This document shows positions 14,429 to 62,301 of a DNA stretch of 64,000 bases, in pieces. Under the pieces are notes generated by a model that worked only from the letters and a program-made list of their open reading frames with translations, was not told where the DNA came from and searched no databases. Source of the DNA: Moorella sp. Hama-1 (GTDB lineage: Bacteria > Bacillota > DSM-521 > Neomoorellales > Neomoorellaceae); NCBI RefSeq assembly GCF_023734095.1, contig NZ_AP024620.1, positions 1,298,501 to 1,362,500 on the forward strand, in the 5' to 3' direction. The position numbers and the translations under genes were made by a program. Each line of letters begins with the position of its first letter. The stretch's first letter is position 1.

Positions 14429-16471
14429 CTACGCCTCTTTCTTAGCCCTGGCCTGCTGGATGATCTTCTCAGCAATGCTGGCCGGGACCTCTTCGTATTG
14501 GGCGAAGTCCATTTTGAAGTGGCCGCGGGCCTGGGTGATGGATTTCAAATCAATGGCGTAACGGTACATCTCGGCCAGGGGTACCTGGGCGCGGATAACC
14601 TGGTTTTTACCCTGGGGTTCCATACCCAGGATACGACCGCGACGGCTGTTCAAGTCACCCATGATATCGCCCATGAACTGTTCCGGTACCGTTATCTCCA
14701 CGTTCATGATGGGCTCCAGCAGCACCGGCTTGGCCTGCTCCACAGCTTTACGAAAAGCCAGGCTCGCGGCAACCTTGAAGGCCATTTCCGAGGAGTCTAC
14801 CGGGTGGTAGGAACCGTCGGCCAGGTTAACCTTGATATTGGTTACCGGGTAGCCAGCCAGGATACCCTCCTGCATGGCTTCCCTGATGCCCTTTTCTACT
14901 GCCGGGATATACTGGCGCGGTACGGCCCCGCCGAAGATACTCTCGGTGAACTCAAAGTCCTGCTCTGGCAAGGGTGCCATGTCAATAAAGACATGGCCGT
15001 ACTGGCCGTGACCCCCGGTTTGTTTTTTATGCTTACCTTCAATATGATTGACGGCAGCACGGATAGTTTCCCGGTAAGGCACGGTGGGGGTGCTCATTTC
15101 GACTTCGACGCCGAATTTCCGCTGCAGCCGTTCCAGGGTAATATCCAGGTGGGATTCACCCATCCCAGTAAGGATGGTTTCCCTGGTCTCGGTATTCTTG
15201 CTCAAGCGGAGGGTCGGGTCTTCCTCCAGCAATCGTGCCAGGGCATTGCTGAGTTTATCCTCATCACCCTTGCTCTTCGGTTTGATAGCAACCGGCAGGG
15301 TAGGCTCCGGAAAATCGATGCCCTCCAGGCGTACCGGGGCGGCTTTGCTGGTAAGGGTGTCGCCGGTGGTGGTAACCTGGAGTTTGGCTATGGAGCCGAT
15401 GTCCCCTGGTTGCATCTCCGTCACCGGCAGCTGGTTTTTCCCCTGGAGGGAAAAGAGCTGGCCGATTTTTTCTTCGCTTTCCCGGTTAACGTTGTAAACT
15501 GTGGAGTCGGATTTCAGAATGCCGCTATATACCCGGAACATACTTAATTTGCCGACATAGGGATCGGCGATGGTTTTAAATACCAGGGCCGCCAGTTTCT
15601 CCTGCGCCAGGGCGGCGACGTCTTTGCCGGCTGTATCCACGGGTGAAGGCAGGTAATTAATAATATAGTCCAGAACAGGCCGGACGGCCATATTCCTCAG
15701 GGCTGAACCACAGAGCACGGGGATGACCTTGCCGGCAGCCACGGCTTTTTTCAGGCCGGCGCGGATTTCGGCAGCGCTGAGCTCTTCGCCGTCCAGGTAT
15801 TTCATTAACAGATCATCATCGCCCTCGGCGGCGGCTTCCACCAGGGCTTCCCGCAGGCTGGCCACCTCGTCGGCATACTCTGCCGGGACTGGCCCCTCCT
15901 TTTCATTACCATTATCATAGGTAAAGGCCTTCTGGCTGAGGAGATCAATAACGCCGGCAAAGCTTTCCGCTGCTCCCATGGGTAACTGCACGGGAACGAT
16001 ATGCCCGCTCAGCTGCTCCCGCATGGAATCCACGGCTTTGTGGAAATTGGCATTCTCCCGGTCCATCTTATTTACATAAGCAATCCGGGGCAGTTGGCGC
16101 TTATCGGCCTCTTCCCAGACCACTTCCGTCTGGACCTCGACCCCGGCCACGGCGCTTACTACCACCAGCAAACTATCTACTACTCGTAAAGCACCTATCA
16201 CATCGCCAAAGAAGTCACTGTAACCGGGGGTATCCAGCAGGTTTATCTTATGATCCTCCCACTCGGCTACGGCCAGGGAGGAATTGGTCGTCACCTTGCG
16301 TTTAATCTCTTCGGGAAGGTAGTCGGTTACTGTATTGCCCTCATCGACGCGTCCCAGGCGCTTGGTAGCTCCGGCATTATACAGCAGGGCCTCGGTAAGA
16401 CTGGTCTTGCCGGCACCGCCGTGGGCGGCAATAGCTACGTTACGGATACTGCTACTGGGGTAAACCTTCAT
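14429..16471 (-). CDS. EF-G-like translation GTPase (second-type FusA)
   Basis: A 680-residue protein with all EF-G domains. The GTPase motifs are AHGGAGKTSLTEA (G1), DTPGYSDFFG (G3) and NKMDREN (G4). The G1 loop differs from the AHIDAGKTTTTE of the canonical factor, which marks this as the paralogous EF-G-like group found in Firmicutes and Actinobacteria rather than the main elongation factor. No tuf or ribosomal protein genes are adjacent, which agrees. The role of these paralogues (ribosome recycling, stress or translocation variants) is not settled. Start ATG 16471 has GGAGGGT upstream. Confidence 0.9.
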   Translation of the reverse strand: MKVYPSSSIRNVAIAAHGGAGKTSLTEALLYNAGATKRLGRVDEGNTVTDYLPEEIKRKVTTNSSLAVAEWEDHKINLLDTPGYSDFFGDVIGALRVVDSLLVVVSAVAGVEVQTEVVWEEADKRQLPRIAYVNKMDRENANFHKAVDSMREQLSGHIVPVQLPMGAAESFAGVIDLLSQKAFTYDNGNEKEGPVPAEYADEVASLREALVEAAAEGDDDLLMKYLDGEELSAAEIRAGLKKAVAAGKVIPVLCGSALRNMAVRPVLDYIINYLPSPVDTAGKDVAALAQEKLAALVFKTIADPYVGKLSMFRVYSGILKSDSTVYNVNRESEEKIGQLFSLQGKNQLPVTEMQPGDIGSIAKLQVTTTGDTLTSKAAPVRLEGIDFPEPTLPVAIKPKSKGDEDKLSNALARLLEEDPTLRLSKNTETRETILTGMGESHLDITLERLQRKFGVEVEMSTPTVPYRETIRAAVNHIEGKHKKQTGGHGQYGHVFIDMAPLPEQDFEFTESIFGGAVPRQYIPAVEKGIREAMQEGILAGYPVTNIKVNLADGSYHPVDSSEMAFKVAASLAFRKAVEQAKPVLLEPIMNVEITVPEQFMGDIMGDLNSRRGRILGMEPQGKNQVIRAQVPLAEMYRYAIDLKSITQARGHFKMDFAQYEEVPASIAEKIIQQARAKKEA

Positions 16472-47160: not shown

Positions 47161-47580
47161 CCGAAATAGATGTGTGAGGTTGGAGGTGAGAGGCTTGTCG
47201 AAACTGGCTGCGCCAGTTTCAGATTAAAACTTGCCCGCCTCTCATTTCTTTCCTTCGTTGGTGGTGATCTGCCACCATGGTCGGCTCCCCCGAAAATAGA
47301 CTTCTGCTAAAATGGTGATTACTAGCCTTCCTCGGCGGCGGGGGTGGCTTGTCTTTATCTCTTTGATCAATCATAACGGGGCGTGGTACTTCTCGTTCCT
47401 GAAGCCACGTTACGATCCCCATCCCGTTCACCGCCGCGAAGCTCAAGGCTTCGCTGAGTTTGCTACCGCCTCGAACCAAGTCGCCCTCCGCCTGTACCCA
47501 TCCAGCCCCTGCCTCAGCCCACATTTTCATAGGTCGCTGGCGGGGGCGTCAGCCCCCATGAGGGGCTCCCCCGTAATGAG
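47161..47580. repeat. Modular intergenic repeat, copy A (between feoA and its promoter)
   Basis: The gap 47148-47770 is non-coding. Positions about 47168-47265 hold a module shared with copy B: TGTGTGAGGT, CTTGTCGAAACTGGCTGCGCC, AGTTTC, CTTGCC. Positions 47326-47510 hold the core shared with copies B and C: GGCGGCGGGGGTGGCTTG, CACGTTACGATCCCCATCCC, GTTCACCGCCGC, TTCGCTGAGTTTGCT, CTCGAACCAAGTCGCC, CCAGCCC. Positions 47516-47570 are a tail shared with copy C (GCCCACATTTT, GTCAGC-CCCATGAGGGGCTCC). The left arm of the core is diverged here. It lies in the 5' leader of feoAB. Confidence 0.85.
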
Positions 47581-51980: not shown

Positions 51981-53195
51981 TCAGGCCTGGGCTGCTACCC
52001 GCTGGTTGCAGGCCAGGCGCCGGGAGACGAAACGCTCCATACGGTTCATGGCCTCCGTCAGGTCGGCCAGGGAGGCGGCGTAGGAGCAGCGGATGAAGCC
52101 CTCGCCGCTGGCACCAAAGGCTGTCCCCGGGACGACGGCCACTTTTTCTTCTTTAAGCAGCTCTTCGGCAAAGGTGGTTGCATCCAGGCCGGTGGCGGCT
52201 ATGGAGGGGAAGATGTAAAAGGCCCCCCGGGGTTCAAAACAATCCAACCCCATTTCCCGCAGGCGGCTGTAAACCAGGCGTCGCCGCTGGTCGTACTGTT
52301 CCACCATGCGGTCGACGTCCTGGCTACCGTGGCGCAGAGCCTCCAGGGCCGCCATTTGGCCCATGACGGGGGCGCAGAGGATGGTATACTGGTGGATCTT
52401 CACCATGGCGGCCAGGAAATCGGGATGGGCGGCTACGTAACCGACCCGCCAGCCGGTCATGGCAAAGGCCTTGGAAAAGCCGCTCACCAGGATGGTCCTG
52501 TCCTGCATGTCGGGTAAGGAGGCAAAGGATAGCGGCTGGCCTTCGTAACGCAATTCCGCATAAATTTCATCACTGATCACCAGCAGGTTATACTTGATCA
52601 CCAGCCGGGCAATGTCCTGCATTTCTTCCCGGTTGAGGACGGCGCCGGTAGGGTTATTGGGAAAACAGAGGAGCAGTACCTTGCTCCTGGGCGTAAGGTA
52701 TTTCTCCAGGCGGGCGGCAGTGAGGGCAAAATTATCGGCTGCGGTCGTCGGGATGGTAACCGGGACACCACCGGCCAGCTTTGTTATGGGTTGGTAGGAA
52801 ACATAACAGGGCTCGGGGATCAGCACCTCGTCCCCGGGGTTTAATACGGTCCGTAACGCCAGGTCAACGGCTTCGCTGGCGCCGATGGTAACCATGATCT
52901 GTTTCAGGGGATCATAGCTCAGGCCGAAACGCCGTTCCAGGTAAGCAGCAATGGCCTGGCGCAGTTCTGGTAAGCCATAGTTGGAAGTATACATGGTATA
53001 ACCCCGCTCCAGGGACTGGACGCAGGCCTCGCGAATATGCCAGGGTGTCACGAAATCGGGTTCCCCTACCCCCAGGGAGATTACCCCTTTGGTATTGGCT
53101 ACCAGGTCGAAAAAGCGACGAATACCTGAAGGTGGTAGATTCTTGACCACCGGTGCTATAAAACGCTGGGCTTCAAAACCATGGGAGATAGTCAT
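51981..53195 (-). CDS. PLP-dependent class I aminotransferase
   Basis: A 404-residue fold type I enzyme. SLGVGEPDFVTPWHI and SNYGLPELRQAIAAYL are near the N-terminus; CFPNNPTGAVLNREEM and SDEIYAELRYEG bind PLP; SGFSKAFAMTGWRVGY carries the catalytic Lys (residue 245 or so). This resembles alanine/aspartate aminotransferases of Firmicutes. It overlaps the Lrp gene by 4 bases (ATGA). Both lie behind a T-box whose specifier codon appears to be GCC (Ala), which supports an alanine role, though aspartate or another substrate is not excluded. Confidence 0.88.
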   Translation of the reverse strand: MTISHGFEAQRFIAPVVKNLPPSGIRRFFDLVANTKGVISLGVGEPDFVTPWHIREACVQSLERGYTMYTSNYGLPELRQAIAAYLERRFGLSYDPLKQIMVTIGASEAVDLALRTVLNPGDEVLIPEPCYVSYQPITKLAGGVPVTIPTTAADNFALTAARLEKYLTPRSKVLLLCFPNNPTGAVLNREEMQDIARLVIKYNLLVISDEIYAELRYEGQPLSFASLPDMQDRTILVSGFSKAFAMTGWRVGYVAAHPDFLAAMVKIHQYTILCAPVMGQMAALEALRHGSQDVDRMVEQYDQRRRLVYSRLREMGLDCFEPRGAFYIFPSIAATGLDATTFAEELLKEEKVAVVPGTAFGASGEGFIRCSYAASLADLTEAMNRMERFVSRRLACNQRVAAQA

Positions 53196-53677
53196 GGTTG
53201 TAACACCTGCCTCCGGTCTGCTTCCTGGTCTTCGAAGATAACGCCATCCTGTTTGTATCTTTTTAAGATAAAGTGGGTCATGGTGCTCTGGACGTGCTCC
53301 AGAGTCGCCAGTTTCTGGGAAACAAAGGAGGCTACCTCTTTAAGGCTTTTGCCCTGGACCAGGACGGAGAGGTCATACCCCCCCGACATAAGAAATACGG
53401 ACTTTACCTCCGGGTAGCGGTAGATGCGGCTGGCAATTTCATCGAAACCTAAATCCCGCTGGGGGGTGACCTTGACGTCAATGAGGGCCGCCACCTCTTC
53501 TTCACCGGCCTTCTCCCAGTTGATCAGGGTGTGATAGCGCAGGATGATCTTTTCTTCTTCCATGGAGGCTATTTCCCTGGCTACCTGGTCTACCGGCAGG
53601 GCCAGCATAATGGCGATTTCTTTGGCAGTTAACCGGCCGTTGTTTTCCAGGAGATCGAGGATCTTTTTACGCATCAA
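53192..53677 (-). CDS. Lrp/AsnC-family regulator
   Basis: A 161-residue regulator: an N-terminal HTH (ILDLLENNGRLTAKEIAIML, VDQVAREIASMEEE) and a C-terminal AsnC ligand domain (AALIDVKVTPQRDLGFDEIA, VKSVFLMSGGYDLSVLVQGK, VQSTMTHFILKRYKQDG). Such proteins bind amino acids. It precedes the aminotransferase gene in an overlapping operon. A repeat copy (53692-54046) and a T-box lie upstream. Confidence 0.9.
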   Translation of the reverse strand: MMRKKILDLLENNGRLTAKEIAIMLALPVDQVAREIASMEEEKIILRYHTLINWEKAGEEEVAALIDVKVTPQRDLGFDEIASRIYRYPEVKSVFLMSGGYDLSVLVQGKSLKEVASFVSQKLATLEHVQSTMTHFILKRYKQDGVIFEDQEADRRQVLQP

Positions 53678-53691
53678 ATAATCTTCCTCCG

Positions 53692-54046
53692 AAATGGAAT
53701 GTGTGAGGTGGGAGTTGAGAGGTGGGATACTTGTCGAAACTGGCTGCGCCAGTTCCTGAATTAAAGCTTGCCTACTCCCATTTCTCCCGTTCGCTGCGGG
53801 GCTGGTGGTACAAGCTCCGGGCTCCGTGGTTCTCGGCGAGCAAACTTGGCGCTCAGTTGCTTAAGCGGCGGGGGTGGCTTGACTTTATCTCATCGAATAA
53901 GCGTAGCGGGAAGCGGAACTCTTCGTTTCTCAATTTACGTTACGAACCCCATCCCGTTCACCGCCGCTGCGCCGCGGCTTCGCTGAGTTTGCTAACGCCT
54001 CGAACCAAGTCGCCTTCCGCTTGTACCCGCCAGCCCTTCCGCTAGC
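53692..54046. repeat. Modular intergenic repeat, copy B (between T-box and Lrp gene)
   Basis: The gap 53678-54365 is non-coding apart from the T-box. Positions 53697-53800 hold the module shared with copy A (GTGTGAGGT, CTTGTCGAAACTGGCTGCGCC, CTTGCC). Positions 53798-54035 hold the full core: GGGCTGGTGGTACAAGCTCC, GGTTCTCGGCGAGCAAACTT, GCGGCGGGGGTGGCTTGAC, CCCCATCCCGTTCACCGCCG, CTTCGCTGAGTTTGCT, CCTCGAACCAAGTCGCC, GTACCCGCCAGCCC. The left and right parts pair (GGGCTGG/CCAGCCC; AGCAAACTTGGCG/CGCTGAGTTTGCT with G-U). The tail of copies A and C is missing. Confidence 0.88.
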
Positions 54047-54049
54047 ATA

Positions 54050-54321
54050 AAATGAAAACCCCCCGCCCCATTGGTTTAAGGGACGAGAGGTTGTTCCCGC
54101 GGTACCACCCTCATTGGTCGTACGACCCGGCTTAAGGGCGCATCACTGCGCCTGGCCTTTAACGGGGCCAGCGTCCTGCCTTACGGTCCATACCTTTCCG
54201 GCGGCGGCTTGGGGGTGGCTTTCGGCAGGCCTGCCTCCGGGCTTCCACCGTCCCCGGTTCGCTACCTGCAGGGAAACTGCCTACTTCTTCCCGTCATTGC
54301 CTTTGGTCCTACTGAAATATT
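54050..54321 (-). promoter_or_regulatory. T-box riboswitch, alanine-type specifier
   Basis: On the minus strand the conserved T-box sequence AGGGTGGTACCGCGG lies at 54096-54114. Upstream is Stem I with AGCGAACCGGGG and GGTGGAAGCCCGG; the specifier loop reads GAAAGCCAC, so the specifier triplet is best read as GCC (54217-54219), alanine. Downstream an 11-bp terminator stem (CCTCTCGTCCC / GGGGCGGGGGG, with G-U pairs) is followed by TTTTCATTTT. Uncharged tRNA would block termination. The next gene is an Lrp-type regulator and an aminotransferase, not a synthetase. The promoter is a separate entry. Confidence 0.88.
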
Positions 54322-54327
54322 GATTTC

Positions 54328-54357
54328 ATTTTAGCATCAGTCAACCGGGACTGTCAA
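54328..54357 (-). promoter_or_regulatory. Promoter of the T-box transcript
   Basis: Minus strand TTGACA (54357-54352), 18-base spacer, TAAAAT (54333-54328), just upstream of the T-box Stem I. Confidence 0.75.
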
Positions 54358-55447: not shown

Positions 55448-55755
55448 TCTGGGGGCTGGTGGGTACAGGCTCCAGGCTCCGGTGGTTCTCGGCGAGCAAA
55501 CTTAGCGCTCAGCCTTCCTCGGCGGCGGGGGTGGCTTGACTTTATCCCTTTGAGCAATCATGACGGGGCGTGCTACTTCTCTTTCTTGAAGTCACGTTAC
55601 GATCCCCATCCCGTTCACCGCCGCCGAAGCTAGCGGCTTCGCTGAGTTTGCTTTACGCCTCGAACCAAGTCGCCTTCCGCCTGTAGCCTCCAGCCCTTCT
55701 GCCCACATTTTTGTGGTTTCGTGGCGGGGGGCGACAGCACCCATGAGGGGCTCCT
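55448..55755. repeat. Modular intergenic repeat, copy C (downstream of metF)
   Basis: The gap 55344-55765 is non-coding. The core spans about 55451-55700: GGGGGCTGGTGGGTACAGGC, GGTTCTCGGCGAGCAAACTT, CCTCGGCGGCGGGGGTGGCT, CACGTTACGATCCCCATCCC, CGTTCACCGCCGC, GGCTTCGCTGAGTTTGCT, CCTCGAACCAAGTCGCC, GCCTGTAGCCTCCAGCCC. Its outer arms pair (GGGCTGG/CCAGCCC, ACAGGC/GCCTGT), and AGCAAACTTAGCG pairs with CGCTGAGTTTGCT. The tail shared with copy A spans 55701-55755 (GCCCACATTTTTGTGG, CACCCATGAGGGGCTCC). The A/B upstream module is missing. Confidence 0.88.
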
Positions 55756-57837: not shown

Positions 57838-60800
57838 CTACACCTCCCCGAAGAGGCCGGCTACCTTGGCCAGCAACTGGTCGTCCTTGTAGAACTGCAG
57901 CTGGATGGCCTTGGCCGGGCATTCACCAGCGCAGGTGCCGCAGCCCATACACTGGACGGCATTGATCTCGGCGACGTTGCGTTCATTGATCCGCGGAACA
58001 TTGAAGGGGCAAACCCGGACACACGTCAGGCAGGCGGCGCATTTATCCTCATCAACTACGGCTACTACCCCGCCGACCATGAGGTTTTCCCTGGCCAGGA
58101 CGGTGCAGGCCCGGGCCACCGCCCCTTCCGCCTGGGCAATGGCCTCAGCCGCCAGTTTGGGGGCATGGCCGGCGCCGCAGAGGAAGATGCCGGCCGTGGG
58201 AAAGTCAATGGGTGCCAGTTTGGCGTGGGTTTCCACGTAGAACTTATCCTCATTGAGCGGCAGCTTCAGCAGCGTGGCCAACTTCTCCACCCCTTCCGGG
58301 GCCACGGCTCCCGTAGCCAGGACCAACTGGTCGGGCCAGAGGACCAGTTCTTTGCCGGAATCCGGGTCCTGGACCAGGATCTCCAGGAGGCCGATCTCCC
58401 GCTGCCGTACCTGGGGCGGGTCTTCGGGGTCGTAGGGGATAAAGAGAACCCCTGCTTCCCTGGCCCGGCGGTAGTAATCCTCCATAAAGGCATAGGTGCG
58501 GATGTCCCGATATAGCACATAGACTTGGGCTGCGGCGTTTCGCTCCTTGATGGCCAGGGCGTTTTTAATGGTCTGGGCGCAGCAGGTCCGGCTGCAGTAG
58601 GGATGCTCCGCATCCCGGGAGCCGACGCATTGGATGAAGACTACCTGCTTGTTCTTTTCCGTATCCCACTGGCCGTCGGCCAGGGCCTGTTCCAGCCGGG
58701 TATTGGTAGTGACCCGTTCATCCTGGCCCAGGAGGTAGGCGTCGGTCTTGTTCTCCTGGGTACCGGTGGCCACGATGACGACGCCGTGCTCCAGGGTCTG
58801 GGTACGGCGGACGTGCTCCCGCCCCGGTTCGCCCAGGGAGATAGTCGTCGTAAAGTGGCCCTGGTGGCCGCCGAAGTCTTCAATCCGGGCGCCCGTAAAG
58901 ACCTGGATCCGGGGATTAGCCTGGACCCTGGCGATAAGATCCCGCAGTAAAGCCTGCAGGTCCTCCCCTTCCAGGGTGGTGCGCAGGTTGCGTACCTGGC
59001 CGCCGAGTTCGGGTTCCCGTTCAACAATATAAGCACCAAAACCTTGCTCGGCGACATTCAGAGCCGCAGTTAGGCCGGCGACGCCACCACCGATAATCAG
59101 GGCCTTCTGGATCACCGGCACCGGCTGCATATGCAGGGCTTCATGGCGTTTAACTTTGGCTACCGCCCCCTGGACCAGGTCAATGGCCTTCTGGGTGGCG
59201 TTGGCCGCCTCGTTGCGGTGGACCCAGGAACACTGGTCACGGATATTGGCCATCTCGAAGTAGAACTGGTTTAAGCCCGCTTCCCGGAGGGCCTCCCGGA
59301 AGAGGGGCTGGTGGGTGCGGATGGTACAGGAGGCCACCACGACCCGGTTTAACCGGTACTCCTGGATGGCGTCCTGGATCTTTTTCAGGGTATCCTGGGA
59401 ACAGGTGTAGAGGTTGTCTTCGGCGTGGACCACCCCCGGGAGTTTGGCGGCAGCCTCGACTACAGCCTTGACGTCGACCACACCGGCGATGTTGATACCA
59501 CAGTGGCAGATAAAGACGCCTACCCGGGGTTCCTCCCGGCTGACGTCCCGCTCCGGGGGATACTCCTTGGGGGTGACCAGAGTATTGCGTCCGGAGGCCA
59601 TGGCCGCGCCGGCACAGGCCGCGGCGGCGCTGGCATTGACCACCGTCTCCGGGATATCCCGCGGCCCCTGGAAGACCCCGGCCACATAGATACCATCCCG
59701 GCTGGTGGCTGTAGGGGCGAAGGGCTTTGTCCTGGCAAAACCATACTCGTTGAGTTCGATACCAGCAGCAGCGGCGATCCTGGCGGCGCCCGCCGGCGGT
59801 TTTACCCCTACAGCCAGGACAACCAGATCGAATTCTTCCCGTTGTACCTTCCCATCGGCGTAGTACTGGATGGTCAGGTTTTTGGTCTGGGGGTCCTCTT
59901 CCACCCGGGAGATCATGGCCCGGACGTACCGCACGCCCCCGGCTTTGGCGGCATCAACATAACGGTCGAAGTTTTTACCGTAGGCCCGGATGTCCAGATA
60001 GAAGATAGTAGGCTTAATATTTGCATCATGTTCCCGGGCGATAAGGGCCTCTTTGGTGGAATACATACAGCATATGGCCGAACAGTAGGGGCTGCCCTCC
60101 CGTTCGCAATCCCGGGAGCCGACACACTGGATAAAGGCTATCTTTTGCGGCGGCCGCTGGTCGGAAGGCCGCAGGACGTGACTCTCAGTAGGCCCGGTGG
60201 CACTGAGGAAGCGCTCGAACTCCAGGCTGGTGACGACATTGGGGTAATAACCGTAGCCGTACTCGCCCGTCAGGTTGGCGTCGAAGAGTTCAAAGCCGGG
60301 TGCCAGGAGAACGGAGCCCACCTTTAATTCCGTTACTTTTTCTTGCTGCCAGTGCTCGACGGCCTTCTTTTTACAGACGGCCTCACACTGGAGGCATTCC
60401 GAACAGATGCCGCAGTTCAGGCAGCGTTTAGCTTCGGCTATGGCCTCCTCGGGGGTAAAGCCCTGGTAGACCTCCCGGAAGTCCTGGACGCGCTCTGTTG
60501 CCGGGGCCATGGCCTGGGCCAGGCGCCGGCCGGGGAAGGGCACGACATTGGGCGGCGGATCCAGATGGGGTTCCTTTTCCAGGGAGCGCCCCGCCGTCAG
60601 GTCTTTACCCTGGAGGTAACGGATAACAGATTCCGCCGCTTCGTGGCCGCCGCCGACGGCCTCCACCACTGAAGCCGGTCCCCGGACAATATCGCCACAG
60701 GCGAAGACACCCGGCACGTTGGTAGCCAGGGTGAGGGGGTCGGCGCTGATTAAGCCGCGGTTGGTATTAACTGGGCTTTTTTTTCCCAGTAAGGAAAGGT

Positions 60801-62301
60801 CGGCAGCCTGGCCGATGGCCATGATAACCGTGTCGGCCGCCAGGGTGCTGGTTACCTCCGGGTTATACTGGGGGTTAAAACGGTGGTTGGCATCAAAAAC
60901 CCGGGTACACTGCATCAATTCGACACCGTCAACCCGGCCGTTACTCCCCAGGAAGCGTTTGGGTCCCCAGGAGGGATGGATAATAACGCCTTCTTCGATA
61001 GCCTCCTCGACCTCCCAGGGGTGGGCCGGCATGTCCTCCCGGGATTCCAGGCAGGCCAGGTGGACCTCTCTGGCCCCCAGGCGTCGAGCGGTACGGGCCA
61101 CGTCGATGGCCACGTTGCCGCCGCCGATGACCACGACCTTCTCTCCCACCTGCGGGCTACCGCCCAGGGCTGCCTCCCGTAGGAAGTTTACTCCCGGCAG
61201 GATGCCCTGTAGATCAGACCCCTCCAGCTGGAGCAGGCGGCTCTGTTGCAGGCCGATGGCGATAATGACGGCATTATATTCCTTTTGTAGTTTCTCCAGG
61301 GTAATGTCTTTACCAACAACTGTATTGGGAACAAATTTGACGCCCAGGTTGAGGATACGTTCCGTCTCCCGGTCGACTACCTCCTCAGGTAGTCTATAAC
61401 GGGGGATACCACCCCGCAGCATGCCGCCAGGGCGGCTTAAGGAGTCATAGATGGTAACCTGATAGCCGGCCAGGGCCAGGTCCTGGGCAGCAGTCAAGCC
61501 CCCTGGACCGGCGCCGATAATAGCCACCCTTTCTTCTTTGGGCGATATTTCTGGTTTTTGCTTCTTCTCCCGGGCGGCGTCAGCCTCCCAGCCGTAATCA
61601 AAGGCGGCCCGTTTCAGGGTGGCAATGGCAATGGGGTCATCGAATTCCCCCCGGTTGCACTCCGTTTCGCAGGGATGGTGACAGATGCGGCCGCAGATAC
61701 CGGCAAAGGGCAGGCGCCGGTGGACGACCTCCAGGGCTTCGGCGAATTTACCCTGGGAGATCAGGGCTATATATCCCTGGGCATTGGTGCCGGCCGGGCA
61801 GGCGTTGCGGCAGGGCGGTGTGCCCCGTTTAGTAATCAGATACTTATTGGGTACAGCCTGGGGAAACATCTTGTGGATGGCCTTCCGGGTGCCCATCTCC
61901 TGGTTATACTCGTTGGGTACGCTGACCGGGCAGGCCTGCTCGCAGTCGCCACAGGCTGTACACTCCTGGATATTGACATAGCGGGGCTTTTCCCGGATTT
62001 TGACAGTAAAGTTACCCTTTTTTCCTTCCACCTTCTCCAGGGTAGCGCAGGTATGCAGGCGGATATTGGGGTGATTAGAGGTATCCGTCATCCGCGGCCC
62101 CAGCAGGCACATGGCGCACTCATTGGTAGGAAAGGTTTTATCCAGCTGGGCCATATGGCCGCCGATGGAAGAACTCTCCGTGACCATGTGCACCAGATAA
62201 CCGGCGTTGGCCAGGTCCAGGGCCGATTGCATACCGGCAATACCGCCACCCAGGACCAGGACGGCGCCGACGGCCGGAGTAGTTTCCTTCTTTACACTCA
62301 T
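57838..62301 (-). CDS. hdrA: Double HdrA with inserted NfnB/GltD-like module
   Basis: A 1487-residue flavoprotein, far longer than the usual HdrA of about 650. Residues 1-155 start an HdrA: VLGGGIAGMQSAL, IGGHMAQLDKTFP and the ferredoxin-like CTACGDCEQACPV. Residues about 160-575 are an NADPH-type GltD/NfnB module (CRNACPAGTNAQGY, IIGAGPGGLTAAQDLALAGY, VIGGGNVAIDVARTARRLGA). Residues 627-650 hold CLNCGICSECLQCEAVC. HdrA then continues (IQCVGSRDCEREGSPYCS). Residues 925-1487 are a second HdrA with its own FAD site (IIGGGVAGLTAALNVAEQG) and terminal double 4Fe-4S (CAACLTCVRVCP, CMGCGTCAGECP). It relays electrons between NAD(P)H, ferredoxin and MetF. Confidence 0.93.
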   Translation of the reverse strand: MSVKKETTPAVGAVLVLGGGIAGMQSALDLANAGYLVHMVTESSSIGGHMAQLDKTFPTNECAMCLLGPRMTDTSNHPNIRLHTCATLEKVEGKKGNFTVKIREKPRYVNIQECTACGDCEQACPVSVPNEYNQEMGTRKAIHKMFPQAVPNKYLITKRGTPPCRNACPAGTNAQGYIALISQGKFAEALEVVHRRLPFAGICGRICHHPCETECNRGEFDDPIAIATLKRAAFDYGWEADAAREKKQKPEISPKEERVAIIGAGPGGLTAAQDLALAGYQVTIYDSLSRPGGMLRGGIPRYRLPEEVVDRETERILNLGVKFVPNTVVGKDITLEKLQKEYNAVIIAIGLQQSRLLQLEGSDLQGILPGVNFLREAALGGSPQVGEKVVVIGGGNVAIDVARTARRLGAREVHLACLESREDMPAHPWEVEEAIEEGVIIHPSWGPKRFLGSNGRVDGVELMQCTRVFDANHRFNPQYNPEVTSTLAADTVIMAIGQAADLSLLGKKSPVNTNRGLISADPLTLATNVPGVFACGDIVRGPASVVEAVGGGHEAAESVIRYLQGKDLTAGRSLEKEPHLDPPPNVVPFPGRRLAQAMAPATERVQDFREVYQGFTPEEAIAEAKRCLNCGICSECLQCEAVCKKKAVEHWQQEKVTELKVGSVLLAPGFELFDANLTGEYGYGYYPNVVTSLEFERFLSATGPTESHVLRPSDQRPPQKIAFIQCVGSRDCEREGSPYCSAICCMYSTKEALIAREHDANIKPTIFYLDIRAYGKNFDRYVDAAKAGGVRYVRAMISRVEEDPQTKNLTIQYYADGKVQREEFDLVVLAVGVKPPAGAARIAAAAGIELNEYGFARTKPFAPTATSRDGIYVAGVFQGPRDIPETVVNASAAAACAGAAMASGRNTLVTPKEYPPERDVSREEPRVGVFICHCGINIAGVVDVKAVVEAAAKLPGVVHAEDNLYTCSQDTLKKIQDAIQEYRLNRVVVASCTIRTHQPLFREALREAGLNQFYFEMANIRDQCSWVHRNEAANATQKAIDLVQGAVAKVKRHEALHMQPVPVIQKALIIGGGVAGLTAALNVAEQGFGAYIVEREPELGGQVRNLRTTLEGEDLQALLRDLIARVQANPRIQVFTGARIEDFGGHQGHFTTTISLGEPGREHVRRTQTLEHGVVIVATGTQENKTDAYLLGQDERVTTNTRLEQALADGQWDTEKNKQVVFIQCVGSRDAEHPYCSRTCCAQTIKNALAIKERNAAAQVYVLYRDIRTYAFMEDYYRRAREAGVLFIPYDPEDPPQVRQREIGLLEILVQDPDSGKELVLWPDQLVLATGAVAPEGVEKLATLLKLPLNEDKFYVETHAKLAPIDFPTAGIFLCGAGHAPKLAAEAIAQAEGAVARACTVLARENLMVGGVVAVVDEDKCAACLTCVRVCPFNVPRINERNVAEINAVQCMGCGTCAGECPAKAIQLQFYKDDQLLAKVAGLFGEV

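Follow-up and report, generated by a model that had tools for sequence, protein, structure and literature searches.

A tRNA-Ala T-box leader upstream of an Lrp-family regulator and a predicted alanine aminotransferase in Moorella sp. Hama-1

The operon and its leader

The window, i.e. the entire 64,000-nucleotide stretch of Moorella sp. Hama-1 DNA analyzed here, encodes two overlapping genes on its minus strand. The first (53192..53677, -; the starts of its relatives suggest the ATG at 53674) codes for an alaR-like regulator of the Lrp/AsnC family, matching PF01037 (58.9 against a cut-off of 25) and PF13412 (28.5 against a cut-off of 21.9), i.e. a winged HTH together with an AsnC ligand-binding domain. 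The second (51981..53195, -) codes for an alaT-like class I aminotransferase, which is predicted to be an alanine aminotransferase. These are the genes which a first-pass annotation, made from the sequence without database searches, had placed downstream of a T-box in lieu of alaS.

Upstream of them a complete T-box leader, with promoter, Stem I, T-box, antiterminator and terminator, occupies positions 54357-54049 (-). A promoter scan recovered a sigma-70-type promoter (54328..54357, -), with TTGACA and TAAAAT separated by 18 nucleotides, a TG before the -10 element making it an extended -10, and 11 of 12 consensus matches; two promoter-like sites were found in the region versus 0.3 expected. 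Stem I (54207..54306, -), delimited by the RF00230 match, our own model R1 (91.9 bits) and covariation, has the apex GGTGGAAGCCCGG and a specifier loop GAAAGCCAC (54223-54215), in which the sequence, RF00230 and the specifier column concur on the alanine codon GCC (54217..54219, -). It is followed by the T-box sequence AGGGTGGTACCGCGG (54097..54111, -), assigned from sequence, RF00230 and the discriminator base, whose UGGU fits the ACCA of tRNA-Ala. In the antiterminator (54075..54111, -), defined by pairing comparison, AGGG pairs with CCCU and GCGGG with CUCGU, and its 3' strand is common to the terminator. The latter (54059..54090, -), an intrinsic terminator recognized from sequence, folding and pairing comparison, has arms at 54090-54080 and 54069-54059 that form 11 pairs, including three G-U, before TTTTCATTTT and a U-rich tail (54058-54049). 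The first-pass annotation had listed the promoter, Stem I apex, specifier loop, T-box and 11-bp terminator, and all of these lie on the minus strand at the positions it had assigned; the T-box finding is confirmed as real, and that reading as right in its essentials.

The locus displays the features by which T-boxes are recognized: a Stem I with the specifier loop between two helices, a 14-nucleotide T-box sequence with a UGGN bulge fitting the tRNA acceptor end, and a specifier-loop codon, GCC, in keeping with the amino acid of the downstream gene as predicted from its likely function. The Rfam search that had been proposed as a check returned a full-length match to RF00230 (54306-54076, model positions 1-219, E 1.1e-17), with a score of 80.4 bits that falls short of the gathering score of 93, which is a curation cut-off rather than a class-defining feature; 21 of 28 orthologous leaders are at or above it. 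Owing to this score a default Rfam run of the window lists four tRNAs only. The canonical Stem I did not appear in the single-sequence minimum free energy fold of the leader, which is not unusually stable (z -1.08, with 28 of 200 shuffles equally stable); folding of this kind is uninformative as proof of a T-box, and comparison across relatives carries the case. A separate, weak R1 match elsewhere in the window (15823-15915, E 0.098) was taken as chance.

Conservation of the link and the likely product of the operon

A search of 61 genomes detected the regulator in 36, and 30 loci from these were examined for T-boxes, of which 28 carry one just upstream of the regulator gene. Among the other two, L033 (from genome G025) gave no match, and L021 is cut by a contig end that leaves 46 nucleotides of upstream DNA. 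In a second sample, comprising the best 80 of 591 candidate loci with informative record names, Stem I and the T-box precede the regulator in 23, with those names including Moorella mulderi, Thermincola, Heliobacterium, Carboxydothermus, Syntrophomonas, Thermosyntropha and Ruminiclostridium. The T-box-lrp link that the first-pass annotation had suggested looking for in relatives is therefore conserved in relatives. The remaining 57 of the 80 named loci with the regulator gave no T-box, among them those of Lachnospiraceae, two Bacillales and Gastranaerophilales bins, as well as L161, which has just 13 nucleotides of upstream sequence; thus, the operon does not need a T-box everywhere. The aminotransferase directly follows the regulator in 107 of 110 loci, the exceptions being L151 (none), L114 (a partial match) and L167 (307 nucleotides apart). 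When the T-box label of 108 of the 110 regulators is mapped on a quickly built tree of all of them, it requires at least 8 changes, whereas shuffled labels require 36 on average; this indicates that the T-box was inherited with the operon, with a few gains or losses. As an aside, this tree places the pairs L125, L133, L144, L152, L160 and L168, whose bins carry the name Gastranaerophilales/Melainabacteria, in the midst of Lachnospiraceae, pointing to either gene transfer or misassigned contigs.

Across the two samples the specifier column reads alanine in all 51 T-box loci (45 GCC, 4 GCA and 2 GCG), which are not independent of each other, e.g. the regulators of L036 and L121 are identical. 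The aminotransferase is closest to NF005816 (PRK07682), scoring 597.5-597.8 bits against 339 bits for the next-best paralog in the genome, and lies just below the curated cut-off of 620, a value exceeded in one of 14 control genomes. It is accordingly conceivable, though unlikely, that the T-box is alanine-specific while the enzyme is mainly an aspartate, aromatic or broad-range aminotransferase for which alanine is one substrate among others: the missed cut-off, a family name that gives no substrate, and the best PDB relatives, the aspartate aminotransferase 1gd9 and the aromatic aminotransferase 1dju, all point this way, but 51 loci have a sensor of Ala-tRNA on this gene pair, invariably with an alanine codon, which is difficult to account for if the operon does not raise alanine. 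Also against it, a search of the genome with TIGR00518 for alanine dehydrogenase, a candidate for the main route to alanine, found none, whereas the same model has matches in seven of the 14 control genomes. Neither was a T-box match detected at the single alaS copy of the genome, which could otherwise have been the target of such a sensor. With neither an alaS T-box nor an alanine dehydrogenase found, alanine synthesis becomes the likely output of the operon, and the T-box specificity taken together with the gene content suggests that the aminotransferase likely forms alanine.

A dispersed repeat between the terminator and the first gene

The T-box lies 434 nucleotides from the start codon in the window versus 75-143 in nine congeners. 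The difference corresponds to about 360 nucleotides of extra, repeat-derived sequence between the terminator and the first gene, which the first-pass annotation had left unmentioned. Repeat searches and congener comparison define its core as a copy of a dispersed, strand-polar repeat (53790..54037, -), with related sequence extending to about 53720; two more copies lie in the window at 55452-55697 and 47335-47508. With 40 of 190 first-look candidates scored, there are 56 matches in the genome, 41 of them long, and a search of 10 other genomes from the genus gave matches in 9. The repeat had no Rfam match within the window, and a literature search with broad terms gave no usable description of a Moorella repeat.

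The copies show a characteristic placement. In 24 of the first 30 a same-strand gene with a ribosome-binding site lies downstream within 420 nucleotides, and in three there is a divergent gene on the other side; the respective numbers are 4 and 2 for 11 further copies with shorter flanks, and 7 and 3 for nine copies from the genome G005. Many copies end in the ribosome-binding site CTATTTTCGGAGGAG before the start codon. Two of the six T-box leaders of the genome, the Ala and the Cys leaders, carry the repeat: a copy (L002, 1213-1431) lies directly downstream of the Cys T-box (G000:C1, 3282303-3282540) on the same strand, with 85% identity over 219 nucleotides. This pattern leads us to a tentative proposal, for which the odds are somewhat less than even, that the repeat (about 250-360 nucleotides) might be a 5'-leader cassette of the genus that is, or once was, mobile. 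Such a cassette would insert in a single orientation a short distance before start codons and carry a ribosome-binding site at its end, and would thereby enter leaders, including T-box leaders, with the promoter, riboswitch and translation start being retained. The repeat may be a more unusual object than the T-box itself.

The insertion raises the question of whether the T-box here is a relic, uncoupled from its genes by the repeat. Both the lengthened spacing and the stable fold of the repeat-bearing stretch (z -5.28) would accommodate such an uncoupling, which we consider improbable, given that the promoter, terminator and T-box are all intact and that a GGAGG ribosome-binding site precedes the regulator start. 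Moreover, the promoter scan detected no promoter-like site on the minus strand, i.e. that of the genes, inside the window copy; hence, control of the operon by the T-box has most likely persisted.

Pairing, specificity and a mechanistic interpretation

The secondary structure is borne out by its relatives. In a set of 28 Stem I sequences (A2) 91.9% of cells retain the Stem I pairing as against 83.0% in shuffles, with none of 500 shuffles reaching the true value; versions slid out of register pair in 26.7-52.6% of cells, and 12 of the 15 pairs have changed on both sides. The specifier loop is flanked by helix 16-18/102-104, paired in 100% of cells, and helix 27-31/88-92, paired in 85.7%. In the 3' halves of 47 of the 51 loci (A4; L012, L013, L097 and L121 were omitted as near copies) paired cells amount to 88.0% for the terminator (81.7% in shuffles, with none of 500 getting as high) and to 98.3% for the antiterminator, each exceeding all of its slid versions. 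Since the antiterminator varies little, with changes on both sides in two of its nine pairs, its support comes from conservation more than from covariation. The strand CUCGUCCC is common to both, making terminator and antiterminator mutually exclusive structures.

The specifier counts divide into 26 GCC and 2 GCG in the 28 relatives' loci, where the stretch ends of A2 were set by a pattern requiring GCC or GCG that all 28 fitted, and 19 GCC and 4 GCA in the 23 named loci, which, like the same-genome control T-boxes, were read without this constraint through R1, a model built on A2 that A2 members fit by construction. The controls gave ACC before a thrS-like start and TTC before pheS-like and aroF-like starts, the names being our assumption from the look of the protein starts, while a fourth, Cys-type leader gave TGC (Cys). 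The discriminator bases tell the same story: the tRNA-Ala(GGC) of the genome, one of the tRNAs read by ARAGORN in 30 of 48 loci found, which leaves room for a further Ala tRNA of a different anticodon, has A73, which fits the UGGU of the window T-box; tRNA-Phe likewise has A73 and its T-boxes UGGU, and tRNA-Cys and tRNA-Thr(GGT) have U73 and their T-boxes UGGA. Together with the specifier column this supports a window T-box specific for alanine, as the first-pass annotation had held. That another triplet of the loop is the specifier and another tRNA the one sensed is very improbable: registers can be ambiguous, and the L001 T-box of the same genome has one misfitting its T-box base, but here the column is fixed by covarying helices on both sides, shifts by one base (AGC, CCA) would mean Ser or Pro, the third-position changes among GCC, GCA and GCG retain Ala across loci, UGGU fits A73, and the ACC (Thr) raised earlier as a potential disproof turned up at the thrS-like control instead.

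We therefore regard it as highly probable that a transcriptional tRNA-Ala T-box riboswitch controls an operon of two genes, one for a regulator of the Lrp/AsnC family and the other for a class I aminotransferase that forms alanine. The transcript would start near 54321, and Stem I would present GCC to the anticodon of tRNA-Ala(GGC). When this tRNA is uncharged its ACCA end is predicted to pair with UGGU in the T-box bulge and stabilize the antiterminator, allowing RNA polymerase to continue past the terminator site and the inserted repeat and to transcribe both genes, with the consequent transamination of pyruvate to alanine. When it is charged, the terminator (54090-54059) would form and transcription would stop. 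The regulator is probably a second layer of control.

A precedent for the sensor is presented by the alaS T-boxes of Bacillus subtilis and Clostridium acetobutylicum, which, according to PMC4695836, belong to the same class and share the tRNA-Ala specificity, the UGGU bulge fitting ACCA and the terminator/antiterminator switch. Those T-boxes use a GCU specifier and control the synthetase, whereas here the specifier is GCC, with GCA or GCG in its place in a few of the relatives, and the target is an aminotransferase operon. The T-box database paper (PMC7778990) likewise reports that Ala T-boxes favor specifiers with a 3' U, which occur in none of the 51 loci of the present set. Amino-acid biosynthesis T-boxes, e.g. 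that of the aroF-like L003 in the same genome, similarly place a biosynthetic enzyme under the T-box for its product, and the window operon differs from them only in the amino acid and in the regulator gene within the operon. A gene pair of the same kind, with an Lrp-family regulator adjoining a class I aminotransferase, is the B. subtilis alaR-alaT operon that Sidiq et al. are said to have described in 2021. In two Bacillales loci (L106 and L140) the pair is present with no T-box match, unlike the window operon. A 2019 survey (PMC6522883) lists AlaT as BSU31400 and calls it uncharacterized, its B. subtilis annotation being at that time without experimental support. Our search on alaR/alaT, with broad terms, yielded nothing usable, and the link between T-box, regulator and aminotransferase was not found in the literature searched; large T-box compilations may list it, and we make no claim of priority.

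The T-box is thus of a known class, and its target is conserved and sensible rather than surprising. What the locus adds is a likely function, alanine synthesis, for a widespread regulator-aminotransferase pair, the suggestion that what the tRNA-Ala sensor protects in these bacteria is the alanine supply and not alanyl-tRNA synthetase, and a group of Ala T-boxes reading GCC that can be set against those of alaS, which read GCU.

Two minor observations concern other loci. The L001 T-box (G000:C1:28402-28636) precedes a gene which, from its sequence, we take to encode a class V aminotransferase-like protein; its specifier column reads GGC (Gly), and GCA (Ala) if shifted by one base, while its T-box base, which in most congeners is C, is U in this genome, and tRNA-Gly, with U73, would want A. 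In the window, a 1487-aa ORF (57838-62301, -) presumably encodes an HdrA-type flavoprotein with an inserted part like the glutamate synthase small subunit, and lies near what we assume, from the look of the sequence, to be a methylenetetrahydrofolate-reductase-like gene.
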